DNA of 26,210 nt from a virus. Location of the stretch: IMG/VR virus record IMGVR_UViG_3300030101_003477, positions 694 through 26,903 of that record; one strand, 5' to 3'. Positions 7,826 through 22,045 of the stretch are shown piece after piece; positions within the stretch are counted from its first letter, which is position 1; each line of letters opens with the position of its first letter. The notes beneath the pieces were generated by a model that was not told where the DNA came from, did not search any database, and saw only the letters and a list, made by a program, of their open reading frames with translations. The position numbers and the translations under genes were made by a program.

Positions 7826-10800
7826 TTATATTTTTGCTATAGATACTAATGCACCATATACTCTTGATGTACTAGATTGTTCGACTTGTAATAATAAATA
7901 ATTTATTGCTGTGCTATTAACATCAGTTATATCAAGTAGTGTTCCTACGTTACCACTACCTTTTGATGAGGTACTAGCACTATCTACACTTCCTTCAAGT
8001 ACTTTAAATGATTGTGTGTCGTTACCATAAATTAAAACCTCAGTAGCTTTAAATCCTCTAGGTATTGATACAGTAGCATACATTCTTAATGATGAAAACG
8101 ATTCTAACCATCTAGTAGTTCCTATCTCATCTATCATTACTGGTCTACCTCCTTGATTAGGAATAAAATCACTATGAAGTACCTTAATTTTTGTTATGCC
8201 TGGTAATATATTTCCTGATAAACTTAAATCCCCTTTTAAACTATCATAAGTCATTCCACTATCACCACCAAAAGAGCCACCATCATTAAATTGTACTTGT
8301 GTATCTGAACCACCTGGAGTTACAGGTGATGAAGGAGGTGAATTAGCTATAACATTAGTTAAATCAAATGTTGATATAGCTATAATAGAACCTGCAGGAT
8401 AATTAACAGAAGGTGTAAATGAAGCAATATCTATTGACGATTGACCTGAACTTTCAGTACCATCCTTAGTAATAATAGCAGGGTGACTTAAATCAGGTCT
8501 TAACAAAACTAATTTTTGAGTGCTATATAATTTAGACCTAGTATTACTTAATAGTTGAAGTTTAGTTTTTGGTGTACCTGCTGTCATTTCTGCGTCAGTT
8601 ACACCTACAGAATTATACTTAATCCAATTTTTAACAAAATTACTACTGTCTGTAAGGTTTTTAATTGTGCCAGGTAAATTATCCACTTGTATTGGAGGTT
8701 TACCTTGGTTTTGGTCACCCGTTTCAGGTAAACTAATTGGACCTGTATTGACAGAAGTTATAGTTTCTGAAGATGTAGTCATCTTATACCAAGAACCACT
8801 AACTATATCAGTTGCAGCATTTAATGAACCTTCGTAAAAAACATATTTACTACCATCTAACACAATAGATTTAAAAGCACTAAAATCATTTACATAATAT
8901 TCTCCCTCTACAATCTCTAAAGGATTTATTTGTGGCTCTATATATTGCTCTAACAATAGTTGAGTCATATAACCATATGAAAAGCCTTGATTATCTACTT
9001 GAATACTTGTAGGGGCAGTAAAATTAGCTGAAGAGTCAAGTCTTTTAATAGTGTTAATATTTGTGTCTGACTGTCCTGTAGTACCTAAAGATATAGTGCC
9101 TAAATCAACTATTTGATAGTTTTCTAATGATGTAGATGATGAGAAAACCACACCGTTACCACTATTTAAAGAACTACTTGTTATTGATAGATACCTAGTT
9201 TGCATTGAAAAATTTGAAAACCAATGCTGCCCAGTAAAAAATTTTGTTTGTAAATTATTTTTTGTTACTGATAATGCTGTAGGTGTTGAGTTTGGGCTTG
9301 ATGTATCAGGGTCTTGATAATAATTTATAGTACCTGAAACAAATTGTAAACTACAAACACCTCCTGATGATAAAGGAGGCAGAGTTACAGGATAATTTGC
9401 ACCAATATAAGCTTCTGTACCTGCACCTGTAAAATATGGAACTGTGCTTGTTAAATTAGCATTAAAAATATAAACATTAGGTTCTGAAAAAGAACTGTTT
9501 ATAAATGAACCACTATTTACAGGCTCACTTATTGGCATAGTAATTGTAAAGTTAGTATCTGTTGAGGACCAAGACAAAGTTCCGTTAATGTCTCCCTCAA
9601 GGTATAAACCACCAATTTTTAACTTAGCAGTAATAACACCTCCAAGGTGCGTAACATTATTTATTGCAGATAAAAAATCAAATTTTTCACCATAAAATAA
9701 ATTTACATACATTGTTAAAGTGTCTGTAGACGTAGCACTTACAATTCCAAATTCAGTAAGAGCTGTTTCATATACACTTTGTGATGAAGGTATAGCAGCA
9801 GCTCCACCTAATATAGGAAAAATAGGGAAATTAGATAAAGCTTGTGCAGAAGCCATACCTGAATTAAATGTAGCTTTAACTTTTGATATAGGTCTGTCGT
9901 ATCTAAAAACTTGACCTGCTAAAAATTGTCTATTAAAAAAAGAACCTTTTTGTAGCCCAATGTATTCAACAAAAACATTACCAGTTGTTGAGCTACGAAC
10001 TCTAAGTTCTGCACCACCTGTAAAGTTTATTTGCCCACTCTCTGACAATAATGTAACAGCACCCCCTCCTTCAAATTTTTCTATGTATGTAGATAAATCA
10101 TTTTCAGAATAACTAAGACAATATTGACCTTGTGCTAAATCAATGTATAGAAAAGATGATGTTAGTGCAATATTAAATTTATTATTTGTTATTGAAGTAC
10201 AAGAACCATTTGATTGCCAGTTTTGATTACTATCTGTATAATCTTGAGGTTCTAAAATCCAATAATCATTTATAAATCCACTATCTTGTGTAGGGGTTAC
10301 ACTTGAGTCATTCTGTGCATTTTGCCTATTGTCTACAACTTCATTTGCAATATTAATTAAAAAGTTAGGATTTTTAGCCTTTAATTTTTGTATTAATACT
10401 GTGTTTTCCGTGTAATTATAAGGTTGTATACAATATAGTTTACCATCTGCAAGAAAAACTTTTAAACCTAATGATTTAAGAATTTCTTTAAATGCTTTTG
10501 ATTTTTTAAAAAGACCAATACTGTCACCTCCACCTTCAAATGCCATTGGGTTGGCAGCAAACATAGCTAATTTATTTTTGTCGTCTGCGTAAGAAAATTG
10601 TCCTGGTGCAGTCCATCTAAAATTTGTATATATAGATAACTCGTCATCGCTAAGAGGAAAAACATCATCATCCCAGTTGTTTGATACAATTTTAGAAACT
10701 TCTACATAATATTCTAGTATTTTACTTACTGCATAGTCTTGTGTATCTATTACAAAATTTTCTTTATTATTAACTACCTCACCTAAAAAATCATTTGCTT

Positions 10801-11164
10801 TTAGTGAAGTAACAAAAGGGTAGTGTTGATTCTCTTTAGCATCGAAACCTGCATTTAAGTTACCCCACCAATAAATAACAAAATTTCTTCTTATTACTAC
10901 AAAATGTTCACCATCAGGTGATGAAAGTATGCTATCTACAAAAGTTTCGTCACTAGAGTTACTAACCATAAAAGGTATAGTTACCTCAGAAGGCATTGTA
11001 ATATCTTGCCTATCGTCACTACCTTTATATGATAATTTAAAACCCCCTTTACCCGTTTTAAACTCTACACTTGATAAAGAGCTATTTGATAAACTCCAAA
11101 TTTCTATATCCCATCTAACACCTTTTTCAGAGTAAAACTTATTTACATAATTTTTATATGCCAT
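7826..11164 (-). CDS. tail tip / baseplate and fibre protein (1112 aa)
   Basis: A long protein directly after the tape measure, the place of distal-tail and tail-associated (host-binding) proteins. Residues 1-~285 are a conserved globular part (WDIEIW, a trio of Trp-rich strands around FVIYWWGNLN, then SLGLKVFLADGKLYCIQPYN), which I read as the tail-tip structural domain. Residues ~296-405 (from FINDYWILEP to FVEYIGLQKG) look like a carbohydrate-binding jelly-roll module. Long beta- and Ser/Thr-rich stretches follow. Near residue 955 is the collagen-like or fibre-joint motif DTQVQFNDGG found in many phage fibres, then a C-terminal ~145-residue domain. The protein probably combines tail closure and receptor binding. 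Its start overlaps the tape-measure stop by one base (TAATG). Confidence 0.7.
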   Translation of the reverse strand: MAYKNYVNKFYSEKGVRWDIEIWSLSNSSLSSVEFKTGKGGFKLSYKGSDDRQDITMPSEVTIPFMVSNSSDETFVDSILSSPDGEHFVVIRRNFVIYWWGNLNAGFDAKENQHYPFVTSLKANDFLGEVVNNKENFVIDTQDYAVSKILEYYVEVSKIVSNNWDDDVFPLSDDELSIYTNFRWTAPGQFSYADDKNKLAMFAANPMAFEGGGDSIGLFKKSKAFKEILKSLGLKVFLADGKLYCIQPYNYTENTVLIQKLKAKNPNFLINIANEVVDNRQNAQNDSSVTPTQDSGFINDYWILEPQDYTDSNQNWQSNGSCTSITNNKFNIALTSSFLYIDLAQGQYCLSYSENDLSTYIEKFEGGGAVTLLSESGQINFTGGAELRVRSSTTGNVFVEYIGLQKGSFFNRQFLAGQVFRYDRPISKVKATFNSGMASAQALSNFPIFPILGGAAAIPSSQSVYETALTEFGIVSATSTDTLTMYVNLFYGEKFDFLSAINNVTHLGGVITAKLKIGGLYLEGDINGTLSWSSTDTNFTITMPISEPVNSGSFINSSFSEPNVYIFNANLTSTVPYFTGAGTEAYIGANYPVTLPPLSSGGVCSLQFVSGTINYYQDPDTSSPNSTPTALSVTKNNLQTKFFTGQHWFSNFSMQTRYLSITSSSLNSGNGVVFSSSTSLENYQIVDLGTISLGTTGQSDTNINTIKRLDSSANFTAPTSIQVDNQGFSYGYMTQLLLEQYIEPQINPLEIVEGEYYVNDFSAFKSIVLDGSKYVFYEGSLNAATDIVSGSWYKMTTSSETITSVNTGPISLPETGDQNQGKPPIQVDNLPGTIKNLTDSSNFVKNWIKYNSVGVTDAEMTAGTPKTKLQLLSNTRSKLYSTQKLVLLRPDLSHPAIITKDGTESSGQSSIDIASFTPSVNYPAGSIIAISTFDLTNVIANSPPSSPVTPGGSDTQVQFNDGGSFGGDSGMTYDSLKGDLSLSGNILPGITKIKVLHSDFIPNQGGRPVMIDEIGTTRWLESFSSLRMYATVSIPRGFKATEVLIYGNDTQSFKVLEGSVDSASTSSKGSGNVGTLLDITDVNSTAINYLLLQVEQSSTSRVYGALVSIAKI

Positions 11165-13237: not shown

Positions 13238-13612
13238 TTAGATTTTTATTTTTTTAGGCTCTTTAATATTGTATCTTCTTAGAACATCTTTAATATGCTC
13301 TTCACTAGCAGTATTTTTTTTGACGGGTTTTTTATCCCAAGGGAAAGGCATTAAGTCTTTAGGTTTTATTTTGTGCTTAGAGTGAGGCAAAATAGAGCTA
13401 TGTACAATCATTCTAGTTTGTTCCCAATTATTTTGCGACAGTTGCTCTTGATATTTTTTAAACCCTTTAAGCTTGTTGTTTAAGGAACGTGGAGTAAAAT
13501 CATATAATTCATCATAATTTAACCCCAACATCCCTAATCCAACTTGTTCTAACTCATCCCAATCTGCCTCACTTGCATCTTCTATAACATCCTCTCCCTC
13601 TTCTACTTTCCC
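13238..13612 (-). CDS. tail assembly chaperone, frameshift extension (gpT-like part)
   Basis: This is the -1 frame segment that is joined to the upstream chaperone by ribosomal frameshifting. It continues from the slip site (13612) without a start codon and gives 124 residues: an acidic linker (KVEEGEDVIEDASEADWDEL) then GLNYDELYDFTPRSL, the region typical of gpT-like extensions. An in-frame ATG at 13531 gives a 97-residue product, but that start would cut into the conserved part and leave the acidic linker unexplained. The full fusion would be 97 + 124 = 221 residues. It is needed in low amount to bind the tape measure during tail assembly. The next gene is the tape measure, as expected. Confidence 0.75.
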   Translation of the reverse strand, partial: GKVEEGEDVIEDASEADWDELEQVGLGMLGLNYDELYDFTPRSLNNKLKGFKKYQEQLSQNNWEQTRMIVHSSILPHSKHKIKPKDLMPFPWDKKPVKKNTASEEHIKDVLRRYNIKEPKKIKI

Positions 13613-13902
13613 TTTTTTTGAGGTTGGTCTAATTGAAACGCTGAAAAGATTTCATTTATCTTACCAAAATCTTCATTATCTATCCATTGTTCAATATCTC
13701 GAACTTTGTACTTAAACTCTTCACCGTTTTTCTTAGCACCATATTTTAGACCATAGTAAGCAATAATACCAACGTGGTCTATCTCTGTACCTAATTTATT
13801 CATTTCATTCAACTTTAAATTACAATCATTACAGATATCTTTTAAAGCTAAATAACTAAATCTAATTGGTCTTTTTTGACCTCCTAATTCTACCTTATTC
13901 AT
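13603..13902 (-). CDS. tail assembly chaperone (gpG-like)
   Basis: A 99-residue protein directly before the T extension and the tape measure, the fixed place of the G chaperone in long-tailed phages. It begins MNKVELGGQKRPIRFSYLAL, with a helical middle part (YYGLKYGAKKNGEEF) and ends ...DQPQKKGK. The slippery heptamer lies four codons before its stop. It coats the tape measure during tail assembly and is absent from the finished virion. No motif is catalytic; the call rests on order, size and the frameshift signal. Confidence 0.75.
   Translation of the reverse strand: MNKVELGGQKRPIRFSYLALKDICNDCNLKLNEMNKLGTEIDHVGIIAYYGLKYGAKKNGEEFKYKVRDIEQWIDNEDFGKINEIFSAFQLDQPQKKGK
13612..13618 (-). other. 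programmed -1 ribosomal frameshift site (A AAA AAG)
   Basis: On the minus strand the chaperone frame reads CAA AAA AAG GGA AAG TAG. The heptamer A AAA AAG is in the exact X XXY YYZ register for a -1 shift and is one of the most efficient known slippery sequences. After the shift the frame continues open from GGG to the T stop at 13238, and the codon 13531 lies in that same frame. Any downstream stimulating structure was not identified by eye. Confidence 0.8.
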
Positions 13903-13922: not shown

Positions 13923-15683
13923 TTATAAAACTTTCTTTAGTGATATTGAACTTAGCCAAACATTATTATTAGCAGAAGCTCTTTTTATCAACAACCCTGT
14001 AAAACTAGGTTTTAATAAAACTTTGTGTGTACCAACTGATGAGGGAATAGCTACATCAGGGTCTATATCATTATCCCATCCATCCATTACGAATAATCCA
14101 CCTGCTGTGCTAACAGCAACTGTGTATTCTAATAGTAAAGTATCACCTACTGTAAATAAACCTGTCTTAGTTATATAACTTTGGGCATTTGCTGAGTTAC
14201 TTTTAATTTTACCATAACCATCTTCTACAGTAGATAATGAGTTATTGGTAGGATGTACAGTCCAATAATTAGGGTCATCAAACCCTGTATCTTCTATCAG
14301 TTCAGGTCCAAGCCCATTTGGATATAAATTAGATGTTCCAGTAAATGTAGCTGAACAAGTTAGATTATCTTCAACACCTGAGTCAAAACTTATACTAGAA
14401 ACAAGTGCCTCACCTTGCCAATGTGTAATATTAATAGGGTCTTGATAATCGGTTGCACTAACTGCTGTTTCTATTTGCCAAGATGAGGTAAATATATTAT
14501 CGCCTGTAAGTGTGTTTCCTGCTGAAGGATATAAGTAAAAACCATAATAACTTACAGGTCCTGCATCAGAAGCCTCTGTACTTACTGAACCTTGTATTCT
14601 AGTCCAAGTTGAAGTACTTAAACCCGTTATGTTTACCTGAGCATTAGAAGGTGCAGTAGTAGATAAAGTACCTGGTCCTTCAAGAATTGACCAAGTTATT
14701 GAATTTACAGGGAATACAGTTGCTGTACCACTAATTATCCTATAAATATTAAATTTACATTCTGTTTTAGCACCTGTTCCTGTAGACCCTTTGACATAAA
14801 AAGACCAGCATATTTTTTTATTAGCTAACCTACCTGCATTGGCTATATATTGTAACCTACTTGATGTACCTGAACCTGATGTAATTCTTGAAGCAGTTAA
14901 GCCACCAAATGGATTAGGTTGTAATTGACTTTGAGTAATTCCTGCCGAAGTAAAATTATCAACTCCAAATTGAGTAAGATTAGTTTTTATAATATTTCTA
15001 ATTCTATCGGAAAAACTTAAAGTTACTTGAGTTCCATTTTTTAGTTTATCAAAAAAATCAGAACCATCTAAAGGTGTATCAGGATTTACTGATTGTAAAG
15101 AGTCAGTAGACATTTCAAAAGATTTTAAACCAGGCATAGATTCAGACCATCCACCTGAATCCTTGTTAGTTATATCTCTTAAATCTCTATTAACACTAAA
15201 AGAAGCTGATGTACTAAAAGCTACAGGGTCAAATATTGCACTTGAGCCAGGAGTAATTACTTCTACTATAATTGAATCCTCTTTTATAAAAAATTTAGGA
15301 GTTGTATCACCATCTGCAAAAGATAAAGTAGGTACAATACCTGCAGCACCATTTGTAAAATCTTGATAAGTATAGTCACCATCTACAACAACAGATGATA
15401 GTGAGTAATTACGAAGAAATAATACAGTTCCAATTTGACTCAAAACACTACCTCCAGTATTTGCAGCAGGTGCTGAGAAAGTCAAGCCATCTATTACTGC
15501 ACCCGAAGAGTCTGTAACATTATTTAAAACTAATGTACCAGTATCTTGACCATCTTCTATATCAAATGGGTTGTTAGTTTTTATCCTAATTCTAGTAACT
15601 TGATTAGCAGGAGTAGGATTACCATCTGCATCATAGTTAGACCTAGCATATACCAATAAATCCGATGCGTTATGAATTGCCAT
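13923..15683 (-). CDS. large tail tube paralogue with inserted beta-rich / glycan-binding-like domains (586 aa)
   Basis: This protein shares its framework with the 139-residue tail tube protein encoded upstream. It starts MAIHNASD (tube: MAISNATD). Residues ~158-226 match the tube core (SASFSVNRDLRD, then MPGLKSFEMS and VTLSFS), and residues ~421-453 match its end (GEALVSSISFDSGVEDN). Between these lie two insertions: ~13-157 (beta-rich, unknown) and ~227-420. The second resembles a phage jelly-roll carbohydrate-binding module (CWSFYVKG, TWTRIQGS, SSWQIETAVSATDY). A C-terminal module (454-586; GPELI...ISLKKVL) recurs in the head spike. It probably forms decorated rings or surface projections on the tail tube, or the tube's terminal ring. 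It might replace tube subunits in part of the tail. Function is inferred. Confidence 0.7.
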   Translation of the reverse strand: MAIHNASDLLVYARSNYDADGNPTPANQVTRIRIKTNNPFDIEDGQDTGTLVLNNVTDSSGAVIDGLTFSAPAANTGGSVLSQIGTVLFLRNYSLSSVVVDGDYTYQDFTNGAAGIVPTLSFADGDTTPKFFIKEDSIIVEVITPGSSAIFDPVAFSTSASFSVNRDLRDITNKDSGGWSESMPGLKSFEMSTDSLQSVNPDTPLDGSDFFDKLKNGTQVTLSFSDRIRNIIKTNLTQFGVDNFTSAGITQSQLQPNPFGGLTASRITSGSGTSSRLQYIANAGRLANKKICWSFYVKGSTGTGAKTECKFNIYRIISGTATVFPVNSITWSILEGPGTLSTTAPSNAQVNITGLSTSTWTRIQGSVSTEASDAGPVSYYGFYLYPSAGNTLTGDNIFTSSWQIETAVSATDYQDPINITHWQGEALVSSISFDSGVEDNLTCSATFTGTSNLYPNGLGPELIEDTGFDDPNYWTVHPTNNSLSTVEDGYGKIKSNSANAQSYITKTGLFTVGDTLLLEYTVAVSTAGGLFVMDGWDNDIDPDVAIPSSVGTHKVLLKPSFTGLLIKRASANNNVWLSSISLKKVL

Positions 15684-15708: not shown

Positions 15709-16128
15709 TTAAGAAGAATATGCTAATACGCCTGTACCTGTTAAAGTAAGTGAATAAGTTGCGTTTTCTTCTACTCCTGCGTCAATAGATGCTGAAGATA
15801 TTATTGCTTCACCTGTATATTTTCCTCCAGTATCAATAGTAAAAGATACTTCAACTTCAGCACCTGAATCTAAAATCATTTCATCAATTAAAACTTTTGT
15901 ATTATTCCCTGATGTTGTAAAGTCAGCAAAACCATCACCTGATATTTCCCAAGATTTTAGACCAGGTAAGTTTGATTGCCACCCTGCACTTGATTTTGTT
16001 GTAGAGTCTCTTAAGTCTCTTGAAATTGAAAGAGAAGCACTTGTACAATGTAGTAATACATCTGAAGGCGTTGAACCTGCTGTAGTGTTTATTTTTACTA
16101 CTACGTCTGTTGCATTTGAAATTGCCAT
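15709..16128 (-). CDS. major tail tube protein (TP901-1 MTP / Phage_tail_2-like)
   Basis: A 139-residue, beta-rich, Ser/Thr-rich protein with the pattern of TP901-type major tail proteins: opening MAISNATDVVVKI, the SASLSISRDLRDST strand-turn (~29-44), WQSNLPGLKSWEISGDGF (~50-67), and the closing strands GEAIISSASIDAGVEENATY (~106-125). It builds the hexameric rings of the non-contractile tail tube through which DNA passes. Its place after the tail terminator gene and before the chaperones is standard. The next gene is a much larger paralogue, so this protein is the likely bulk tube subunit. Confidence 0.85.
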   Translation of the reverse strand: MAISNATDVVVKINTTAGSTPSDVLLHCTSASLSISRDLRDSTTKSSAGWQSNLPGLKSWEISGDGFADFTTSGNNTKVLIDEMILDSGAEVEVSFTIDTGGKYTGEAIISSASIDAGVEENATYSLTLTGTGVLAYSS

Positions 16129-16134
16129 TGTTTT

Positions 16135-16548
16135 TTATTTTTTAATTATTAGACAGTTAAAATTTATGTTTTTGTAGAATTTTTCAGAAGTCTTAAAATA
16201 GTCATCATCTAAATCAATAAATCTGAATTTTGCGATATAGTCCACACTATCTTCTGTGTATTCTACCTCGTACAAATCTAAAGCCTCTACAGCAGCCTTA
16301 GCTTGATTATATGTTTGATTATAAGTGTCTGCAAAACAAGCTAATCTTATTGTTACATCACAAGAGTTTAAAGAACTTCCTTTGGATAAAAAATTTGATA
16401 CATTTGTTATCTCATAAGTTGTGCAAGGAAAAGGATTATCCCCTTGAGGAACAATAACTGGAAACACCCTGTTATTATTATTAGCTGCTGTAAAAGCTGC
16501 TGTAGCGTTTAACTTACTTACTATTTTTTTTCCTATTACTGCAAACAT
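16135..16548 (-). CDS. tail terminator / completion protein (DUF3168-like)
   Basis: A 137-residue protein with the DUF3168-like arrangement: an N-terminal helix (FAVIGKKIVSKLNA), then RVFPVIVPQGDNPFPCTTYE, and a middle helix (TYNQAKAAVEALDLY). The C-terminus has alternating strands that end in FNCLIIKK. Proteins of this kind cap the tail tube and join it to the head-closure complex. It lies between the gp10-like gene and the tail tube gene, the usual order. The start is directly before the stop of the upstream gene (1 base apart). Confidence 0.75.
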   Translation of the reverse strand: MFAVIGKKIVSKLNATAAFTAANNNNRVFPVIVPQGDNPFPCTTYEITNVSNFLSKGSSLNSCDVTIRLACFADTYNQTYNQAKAAVEALDLYEVEYTEDSVDYIAKFRFIDLDDDYFKTSEKFYKNINFNCLIIKK

Positions 16549-20959: not shown

Positions 20960-21793
20960 TTATAATAAAACTTTTTTAAGACTAATATTACCTATTGTTC
21001 CATTAAAAGCACTTACTCCATCGATTTTAAAACTATCCCTTGTGACTGTGTTTGTAAATTGCTCAGTATGAACACCAACTGAACTTCTTGTATTGCCATT
21101 TAATGCCGAAACACCATTTGCCTTAGATACTTTAAACCTTACTGAACCACTTGTTCTAGTAAGTATTTCAAATGAAACTTCATAAGTTGCACCTACTTCT
21201 AAAGTACTTATAGATTGTGCTAAGTTTGCTGTTACATTTGTGCCTACTAATCTATCTGAAACAACCCAACCTGAACCTAAAACCCATTGTGAAGATAAAC
21301 TTGGGTTTGTCTCTTTTACTGAAAAATCGAATAATGTAGCAACACTAAAACCCGAAACACGCTTTACTCTTAAACCTAAATAAACATCTGTTGCTAAAAA
21401 AACACCACTATCGTCAGCGTTTGTAATATCAAAATAATCTGTACTATTACTACTTGCTATATGAAATGTGGCATTTGAAAGTACTTGTTCTAAATCCCAC
21501 TGTGTTTTGTAGTATTTACCTGATGTTAAAACATTTTGATATATAACATTATTTGAAGTTGTAGGAGAAACAAGGCTTCTTACACCATCTCCTGCGTTAT
21601 TATCTGTCCATCCGTCATATGAACCTCCACTAGCTGTGCTAGGGTGAATAGACCAATCATTTACACCATTACTAAAATTACTATCAACAAATAACTCAGA
21701 ACCTAGTTCATTAAAATTACCATTGGTAATTAATTCAGGTCCTCTAGTTGCTATTGAGCCTGAGCCTATACTATTTGCTATACCTATTAACAT
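20960..21793 (-). CDS. putative head spike / decoration protein with carbohydrate-binding-like modules
   Basis: A 277-residue beta-rich, Ser/Thr/Asn-rich protein without catalytic motifs. After a short N-terminal anchor (MLIGIANSIGSGSIATRG) come two modules. Module one, ~18-160, contains GPELITNGNFN, VDSNFSNGVNDWSIHP and ends FDFSVKE. Module two, ~163-277, contains GATYEVSFEIL and ends NISLKKVLL. The pattern (an N-terminal Asn-Gly-x-Phe, a Trp a few residues later, a closing I/FS-x-K-x strand) is that of CBM_4_9-like glycan-binding jelly rolls. Its module two ending and opening GPELI motif recur in the large tail-tube paralogue. It lies beside the head-spike base gene, so it is probably the spike that projects from capsid vertices and binds host surface sugars. 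Its start is 3 bases after the spike base stop. Confidence 0.6.
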   Translation of the reverse strand: MLIGIANSIGSGSIATRGPELITNGNFNELGSELFVDSNFSNGVNDWSIHPSTASGGSYDGWTDNNAGDGVRSLVSPTTSNNVIYQNVLTSGKYYKTQWDLEQVLSNATFHIASSNSTDYFDITNADDSGVFLATDVYLGLRVKRVSGFSVATLFDFSVKETNPSLSSQWVLGSGWVVSDRLVGTNVTANLAQSISTLEVGATYEVSFEILTRTSGSVRFKVSKANGVSALNGNTRSSVGVHTEQFTNTVTRDSFKIDGVSAFNGTIGNISLKKVLL

Positions 21794-21796
21794 ATA

Positions 21797-22045
21797 TTAG
21801 TAAAGTGCTACTAAATTTGTAGCAGTTGTACCTGTTGTATAAACTCTATCTACTTTGACTGGTAAAACAGTTCCTGCTATACAGTTTTTAAAAACTATTG
21901 CTGTACCACTTCCTGATACATCTACTTTAACATCTCCACCTACACCTACATATATAAGTGCGTGAATTGTAGCTAAATCACTAGCATTAGAGGTAGTTAC
22001 TGCAACTGCTTCAGTTGCTTGTAATTTTAATTGACTTAAACTCAT
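21797..22045 (-). CDS. head spike base protein (Rcc01079-like)
   Basis: An 82-residue small beta protein matching the pattern of the spike-base family named after the Rhodobacter gene transfer agent protein Rcc01079: SNASDLATIHALIYVGVGGD (~19-38), VKVDVSGSGTAIVFKN, AGTVLPVKVDRVYTTGTTAT (~57-76) and the ending LVALY. In the gene transfer agent this protein sits at the capsid vertices and carries the spike. Here it lies between portal and the spike-like gene, supporting a head-fibre complex on this virion. It is only 5 bases from the portal stop. Confidence 0.7.
   Translation of the reverse strand: MSLSQLKLQATEAVAVTTSNASDLATIHALIYVGVGGDVKVDVSGSGTAIVFKNCIAGTVLPVKVDRVYTTGTTATNLVALY

Follow-up and report, generated by a model that had tools for sequence, protein, structure and literature searches.

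Why does a phage encode, directly after an ordinary tail tube protein of 139 amino acids (aa), a second protein of 586 aa in which recognizable tube segments are spread out between additional domains? We addressed this question in a stretch of 26,210 nucleotides (positions 694–26903 of a 26.9-kb virus record), hereafter called the window. The long gene had been predicted to lie at 13923–15683, which is correct: a complete 586-aa open reading frame (ORF) occupies these positions on the minus strand, with its own start about 25 bases beyond the stop of the tail tube gene (139 aa). In the direction of transcription, the window encodes terminase, portal, protease, capsid, connectors, tail terminator, tube and the 586-aa protein, followed by a 99-aa tail chaperone, the tape measure, a 1112-aa hub-like protein and lysis genes, the roles of ORFs without a database match being inferred from gene order and sequence.

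Two further observations concern this gene order. The 99-aa ORF ends in a slippery site, A_AAA_AAG (~13600–13625, minus strand), where a −1 shift joins it in frame to an ORF at 13238–13531, comparable to the gpG/gpGT tail chaperones; the site is present in 10 of 61 distinct 99-aa genes, and the remaining ones have another end sequence. Between the portal and a 277-aa protein (Table 1) lies an 82-aa protein (21797–22045, minus strand) that matches PHROG 12296 (E 2.5e-15), a family whose tail fibre annotation is odd at this position beside the portal.

The 586-aa protein is a paralogue of the adjacent tail tube protein. BLASTP aligns residues 9–65 of the tube protein with residues 138–194 of the paralogue (47% identity, E 2e-14) and residues 103–135 with residues 421–453 (55% identity, E 2e-07), and the start MAI-x-NA is common to both. 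Pfam PF06199 (Phage_tail_2), the phage tail tube family of TP901-1 type, scores above its cut-off in both proteins, reaching 35.8 bits against a cut-off of 23.8 in the paralogue, where the best stretch covers residues 138–197 only, and PHROG 1407 ("major tail protein") also matches both. Since the two families each recognize both proteins, the likeness goes beyond chance, and the shared landmarks on which the original prediction was built are real. The closest solved relatives of the 139-aa protein, by profile and by fold, are the monocin protein MttP and the tube protein Rcc01691 of RcGTA. Conserved positions that are identical in the tube and paralogue families make up 24 of the 105 core sites, and 9 of these fall within tube residues 40–61. 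In SPP1, the loop 40–59 contacts the neighbouring ring (PMC7666168). Matching tube residues 40–61 to this loop by analogy rather than by superposition, we propose that the RDLRD...GLKS stretch of core A may be a ring-to-ring loop.

How the tube segments and the additional blocks are delimited became apparent from the many relatives of the paralogue in IMG/VR. In every complete case the paralogue directly follows the tube gene and, where the sequence reaches, precedes the 99-aa gene. Once near-duplicates were removed, 53 complete paralogues were left: 15 short forms (249–275 aa) with insert 1 only, five medium forms (428–445 aa) with inserts 1 and 2, and 33 long forms (555–590 aa) with both inserts and a C-terminal module. 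Insert 1 is found in every complete paralogue examined. In the alignment, the short forms have almost no residues over most of positions 231–420, and the medium forms almost none past residue ~460; because the occupancy falls this cleanly, the blocks are evolutionary units and not guesses from a single sequence. The relatives that lack each block set the boundaries of insert 2 (~231–420) and of the C-terminal module (from ~453), and the sizes estimated earlier for the three blocks (~145, ~195, and ~130 residues) are close to those derived from the alignment. The left edge of insert 1 is uncertain, because either strand 9–13 or strand 138–144 could be the original first tube strand.

Table 1. 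Features of the 586-aa protein and of other genes in the window and in related loci (coordinates without a prefix refer to the window; those with an L number refer to loci of relatives).
Feature	Coordinates	Strand	Evidence
Tail-tube paralogue, 586 aa, two inserts and C-terminal module	13923..15683	-	Pfam, PHROG, BLASTP, alignment with relatives
Residues 1-12, conserved start MAI-x-NASDLLVY common to tube protein	15648..15683	-	BLASTP, alignment
Insert 1, residues 13-137, predicted mixed beta/alpha domain, helix 77-89	15273..15647	-	Alignment, structure models
Tube core A, residues 138-228, contains RDLRD...GLKS	15000..15272	-	BLASTP, identity, conserved sites
Insert 2, residues 229-420, predicted jelly roll	14424..14999	-	Alignment, model, Foldseek, profile
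Tube core B, residues 421-452 (GEALVSSISFDSGVEDN...)	14328..14423	-	BLASTP, identity, conserved sites
C-terminal module, residues 453-586, predicted jelly roll, "NGLGPEL...F..W" type	13926..14327	-	Alignment, model
Ordinary tail tube protein, 139 aa, unmodified paralogue	15709..16128	-	Pfam, PHROG, profile search
Tail terminator/completion-like protein, 137 aa, no insert in window	16135..16548	-	Pfam, PHROG, comparison with relatives
Terminators with insert, flanks conserved	L079:3936-4709, L081:7221-7994, L071:443-1246, L037:19-837, L024:7162-7995, others		
Hub-like protein after tape measure, 1112 aa, no insert in window	7826..11164	-	Comparison with relatives
Hub-like proteins with inserts near residue 30	L067:12899-16192, L094:7736-11458, L112:5459-9184, L108:7018-10806		
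277-aa protein between portal and protease, two weak copies of C-terminal-module type	20960..21793	-	Profile
Other proteins upstream of tail genes, largely one or two copies of C-terminal-module type	L010:1247-1693, L026:1215-3710		

In the structure model of the full 586-aa protein, the confident domains are residues ~26–133 (beta with one helix) and residues 244–405 and 458–585 (beta sandwiches), and the tube core is modelled with low confidence (mean pLDDT ~55–75, pTM 0.47). Jelly rolls dominate the Foldseek matches of this model. Insert 2 and the C-terminal module fall on the tandem CBM22 domains of 4xup (probability 1.00), and the match of the modules to CBM22 4xuo has a TM-score of 0.62 by target length with an rmsd of 4.4 Å. 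A jelly-roll fold of carbohydrate-binding module (CBM) type is predicted for both on the basis of these matches, so that the glycan-binding-like modules expected originally are borne out at the level of predicted fold for insert 2 and the C-terminal module, and not for insert 1, which is mixed beta/alpha. A likeness of the full model to Cry/Vip3 proteins was discarded as a beta-sandwich resemblance only (rmsd >25 Å, TM-scores <0.2), with no sign of toxicity.

In order to view the tube part without the jelly rolls, we folded a 258-aa relative that carries insert 1 only (51% identity). Its best solved matches are tail tubes, namely monocin MttP (probability 1.00, rmsd 3.7–4.4 Å, ~124 columns) and those of T1, Sf11, R4C, RcGTA, lambda (gpV), and SPP1. 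The flagellar cap protein FliD (domains D2–D3) appears as a weaker match, which we attribute to the modelled insert 1. One tube fold built around inserts, as had been suggested, is thus supported by structure in the 258-aa relative, and for the window protein by sequence together with that relative.

In a tree of the tube core, built from 114 columns only with a distant outgroup and therefore rough in its inner branching, one branch (100/100) parts all tubes (52/52) from all paralogues (53/53). This topology is consistent with a single duplication as the origin of the paralogues, and gain and loss of the modules would need several changes on the same tree. In eight loci the tube gene is followed directly by the 99-aa gene with no paralogue in between, and for two of these the records, of 29.4 and 22.2 kb, contain only one tube-type match. 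Since the paralogue is missing from several relatives, not all members of the group need it. The distantly related Cellulophaga phage phi17:1 encodes a tube protein but no paralogue, and cultured phages yielded no relative of the full protein, only distant tube homologues. When GTDB genomes were searched with the protein and with the alignment of all 53 members, no related prophage appeared, and therefore no host can be assigned; similarity of the large terminase gave no lead to a host (best 44%, gut phages). In one 36.5-kb contig among the relatives (record L110/G007, loci L144 and L145), the sequence recurs after 27,951 bases, with 4149 of 4162 overlap bases identical, and a complete relative genome is therefore ~28 kb. 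In the locus L083 (9216–9533), a frame break interrupts the paralogue inside its C-terminal module and the rest lies in another frame, through a sequencing error or in reality.

It is conceivable that the paralogue is no part of the particle at all, being an assembly helper or a decaying duplicate. We consider this highly improbable, since dozens of divergent relatives retain a complete frame in which the core sites are strongly conserved, and a broken frame occurs in L083 alone, within the C-terminal module.

The modules and the tube segments have evolved at different rates. Among the long forms, mean identity is 94.8% over residues 1–12, 66% in core A and 77% in core B, compared with 48% in insert 1 and 42% each in insert 2 and the C-terminal module. 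In the pair L007 and L042, core A is 97–99% identical at the nucleotide level, including 34 of 35 fourfold sites, whereas the inner parts of the modules are 41–62% identical, with identity climbing again at the edges. As judged from such alignments, modules are swapped from phage to phage around tube segments that remain almost the same, and other phage pairs exchange single modules; for example, insert 2 is 83% identical between L034 and L037, and the C-terminal module 38%. The tube gene of L007 and L042 is also patchy (60–93%), and exchange is therefore not confined to the paralogue gene. This free swapping of domains suggests that exchangeable grips for the host surface, which probably bind sugar, are mounted on the tail shaft itself.

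A jelly-roll fold need not mean sugar binding. The modules were also compared by sequence. Pfam recognized no CBM family among 29 C-terminal modules or 34 copies of insert 2, profile comparison detected no relation between insert 2 and the C-terminal module, and database searches gave no convincing sequence match for the latter. Insert 1 has no sequence relative in the PDB and one weak PHROG match, to a long tail fibre family. The profile of insert 2 finds the RcGTA head-spike fibre Rcc01080 (E 3.5e-4, a weak homology) as well as two phage baseplate or structural proteins (E 0.0065 and 0.013). The RcGTA spike fibre binds the capsule polysaccharide of Rhodobacter (PMC10218006; PMC7296036). We infer that the modules of the paralogue likely bind glycans.

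Modules of this kind are not restricted to the paralogue. In relatives, the tail terminator may hold a module of the C-terminal type between residues 24 and 25 of the window-type protein; this occurs in 11 of 48 distinct terminators, and in the clearest case the flanks are 67–78% identical. Terminator insert and paralogue as mutual replacements were considered and rejected on the co-occurrence table, which contains many combinations. The inserts near residue 30 of hub-like proteins mostly resemble the C-terminal module, with weak scores, and in L108 the insert is a Pfam Lcl_C domain (PF07603, E 8.9e-9) instead of a jelly roll; a profile of the hub-like N-terminus found no solved relative. The module-bearing proteins encoded upstream of the tail genes (Table 1) are possibly virion surface proteins. 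Because terminator, hub-like and portal-side proteins carry modules, the paralogue is the most elaborate case of a habit that extends to further proteins in this lineage. It could be, although we would stop a little short of expecting it, that fixed sockets in the terminator, in the hub-like protein and, at three sites, in the second tube protein allow domains of sugar-binding or lectin-like type to be gained, lost and swapped, giving the virion a changeable set of grips from neck to tip.

Since the relatives' terminator carries a related module at a fixed site, the tail of this lineage bears decoration at its proximal end, and the paralogue might itself form a head-proximal ring or collar beside the terminator, similar to a neck passage structure. 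The terminator gene lies just upstream of the two tube-type genes, the related module always sits at one site, and two distinct paralogue-free loci have the terminator insert; the many combinations of insert and paralogue, however, leave no simple replacement of one by the other, and we regard such a collar as very unlikely.

The modules might also stabilize or shield the tube and not be adhesins, analogous to Ig-type decorations whose loss is tolerated. Such a role would fit the dispensable FN3 domain of SPP1 gp17.1* (PMC7666168), and no residues of a binding site were recognized in the modules. It appears rather unlikely here, since the modules diverge and swap far more than the tube segments, as expected of parts in contact with the host, insert 2 is related, if weakly, to a capsule-binding fibre, and the lectin-like Lcl_C domain occupies the equivalent socket of a hub-like protein in one relative.

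Taken together, we hypothesize that the duplicated tube-fold subunit is a tail-borne carrier of swappable host-surface adhesin modules, most likely for glycans, which seems to us the probable, though by no means certain, explanation. The computed basis consists of the paralogy, the single paralogue branch, the presence and absence of modules, the mosaic exchange, the predicted jelly-roll folds, and the tube fold of the short form. A duplicated tail tube gene would have been turned into a module carrier whose tube domain, retaining the conserved positions of the normal tube, probably enters the tail together with the tube protein, either interspersed as single subunits or gathered in one or a few rings of its own. 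Surface loops and the C-terminus would hold three domains projecting outward from the shaft as putative host-surface adhesins, with glycans as the most likely targets, and recombination between phages would replace these modules while the tube segments stay fixed.

Alternatively, the paralogue might make up a single specialized ring at the tip of the tail and serve there as distal tail protein (Dit) or as initiator of the tube, in which case the inserts would be its adhesion domains, as in an "evolved Dit". RcGTA and R4C have hexameric distal tail proteins whose tube fold contains an inserted domain of sugar-binding type (PMC7296036; PMC10276861), and no separate distal tail gene was recognized between tape measure and hub in the window. 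For the paralogue, a tube fold (from the short relative) and an inserted jelly roll of putative sugar-binding type are predicted. However, its gene precedes the tape measure gene instead of following it, being placed between tube and chaperone genes in the window, and directly behind the tube gene and ahead of the chaperone and tape measure genes in all loci with a complete paralogue; some relatives possess the tube, chaperone, tape measure and hub genes yet no paralogue; and the paralogue is far closer to its own tube than would be expected of a distal tail protein (RcGTA tail proteins share <19% identity). A tip ring is thus unlikely.

The proposed module carrier would matter in several respects. 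Receptor binding of siphophages is usually sought at the tail tip, whereas here the shaft would have a duplicated, module-bearing subunit whose added domains change much faster than the scaffold, and the natural intermediates illustrate how domains can be accommodated within the fold of a core ring protein. Should the modules prove to bind host glycans, annotation of uncultured phages should include tube and terminator genes in the search for host-range determinants, and the fixed sites of insertion would be natural display positions on a self-assembling tube.

Several known systems share parts of this architecture. The SPP1 tail tube is mixed, consisting of gp17.1 and a longer gp17.1* at 3:1 (PMC7666168), and thus resembles the present case in combining a plain tube protein with a longer form that has an extra domain; however, gp17.1* arises by frameshifting and has a single FN3 domain at its C-terminus, whereas here the longer form is encoded by a separate paralogous gene and has internal inserts. 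In the 936-group lactococcal phages, a CBM on the major tail protein (MTP-TpeX) was shown to bind host cells (PMC6669499). A CBM-type module on a tube protein is common to both cases, predicted here from the structure model, but in the 936 group it is a C-terminal frameshift extension, while the modules described here lie within the fold of a second tube protein. With its own start and internal inserts, the separate gene found here differs from frameshift-made extensions of the TpeX and gp17.1* type. The distal tail proteins of RcGTA and R4C are alike in having a tube-type fold with an inserted domain of sugar-binding type (PMC7296036; PMC10276861), but they form a single tip ring, their gene follows the tape measure, identity to their own tube is low, and one domain is inserted. 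The head-spike fibre Rcc01080, weakly homologous to insert 2 (PMC10218006), is located on the head spike and not on the tail, and lacks a fusion to a tube domain, and monocin MttP (PDB 8qhs, 9j1j) and RcGTA Rcc01691 (PDB 6tba), with 170 and 137 residues, are too short for modules.

In the open-access literature, covered mostly at the level of titles and abstracts, we found no separate tube paralogue with swapped modules inside its fold. BFVD contains large uncharacterized tube-fold proteins of uncultured phages, for example one of 651 aa, and the architecture may therefore exist in databases undescribed. The original prediction had called domains inserted into the tube fold of a second paralogue unusual, which is too broad with regard to its elements, as a tube-fold ring with an inserted domain (RcGTA, R4C) and a CBM on a tube (936 group) were known, and appears to hold for their combination. 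Decoration of tail tubes with sugar-binding domains is already known, and it is the arrangement on a separate paralogue that appears to be new.
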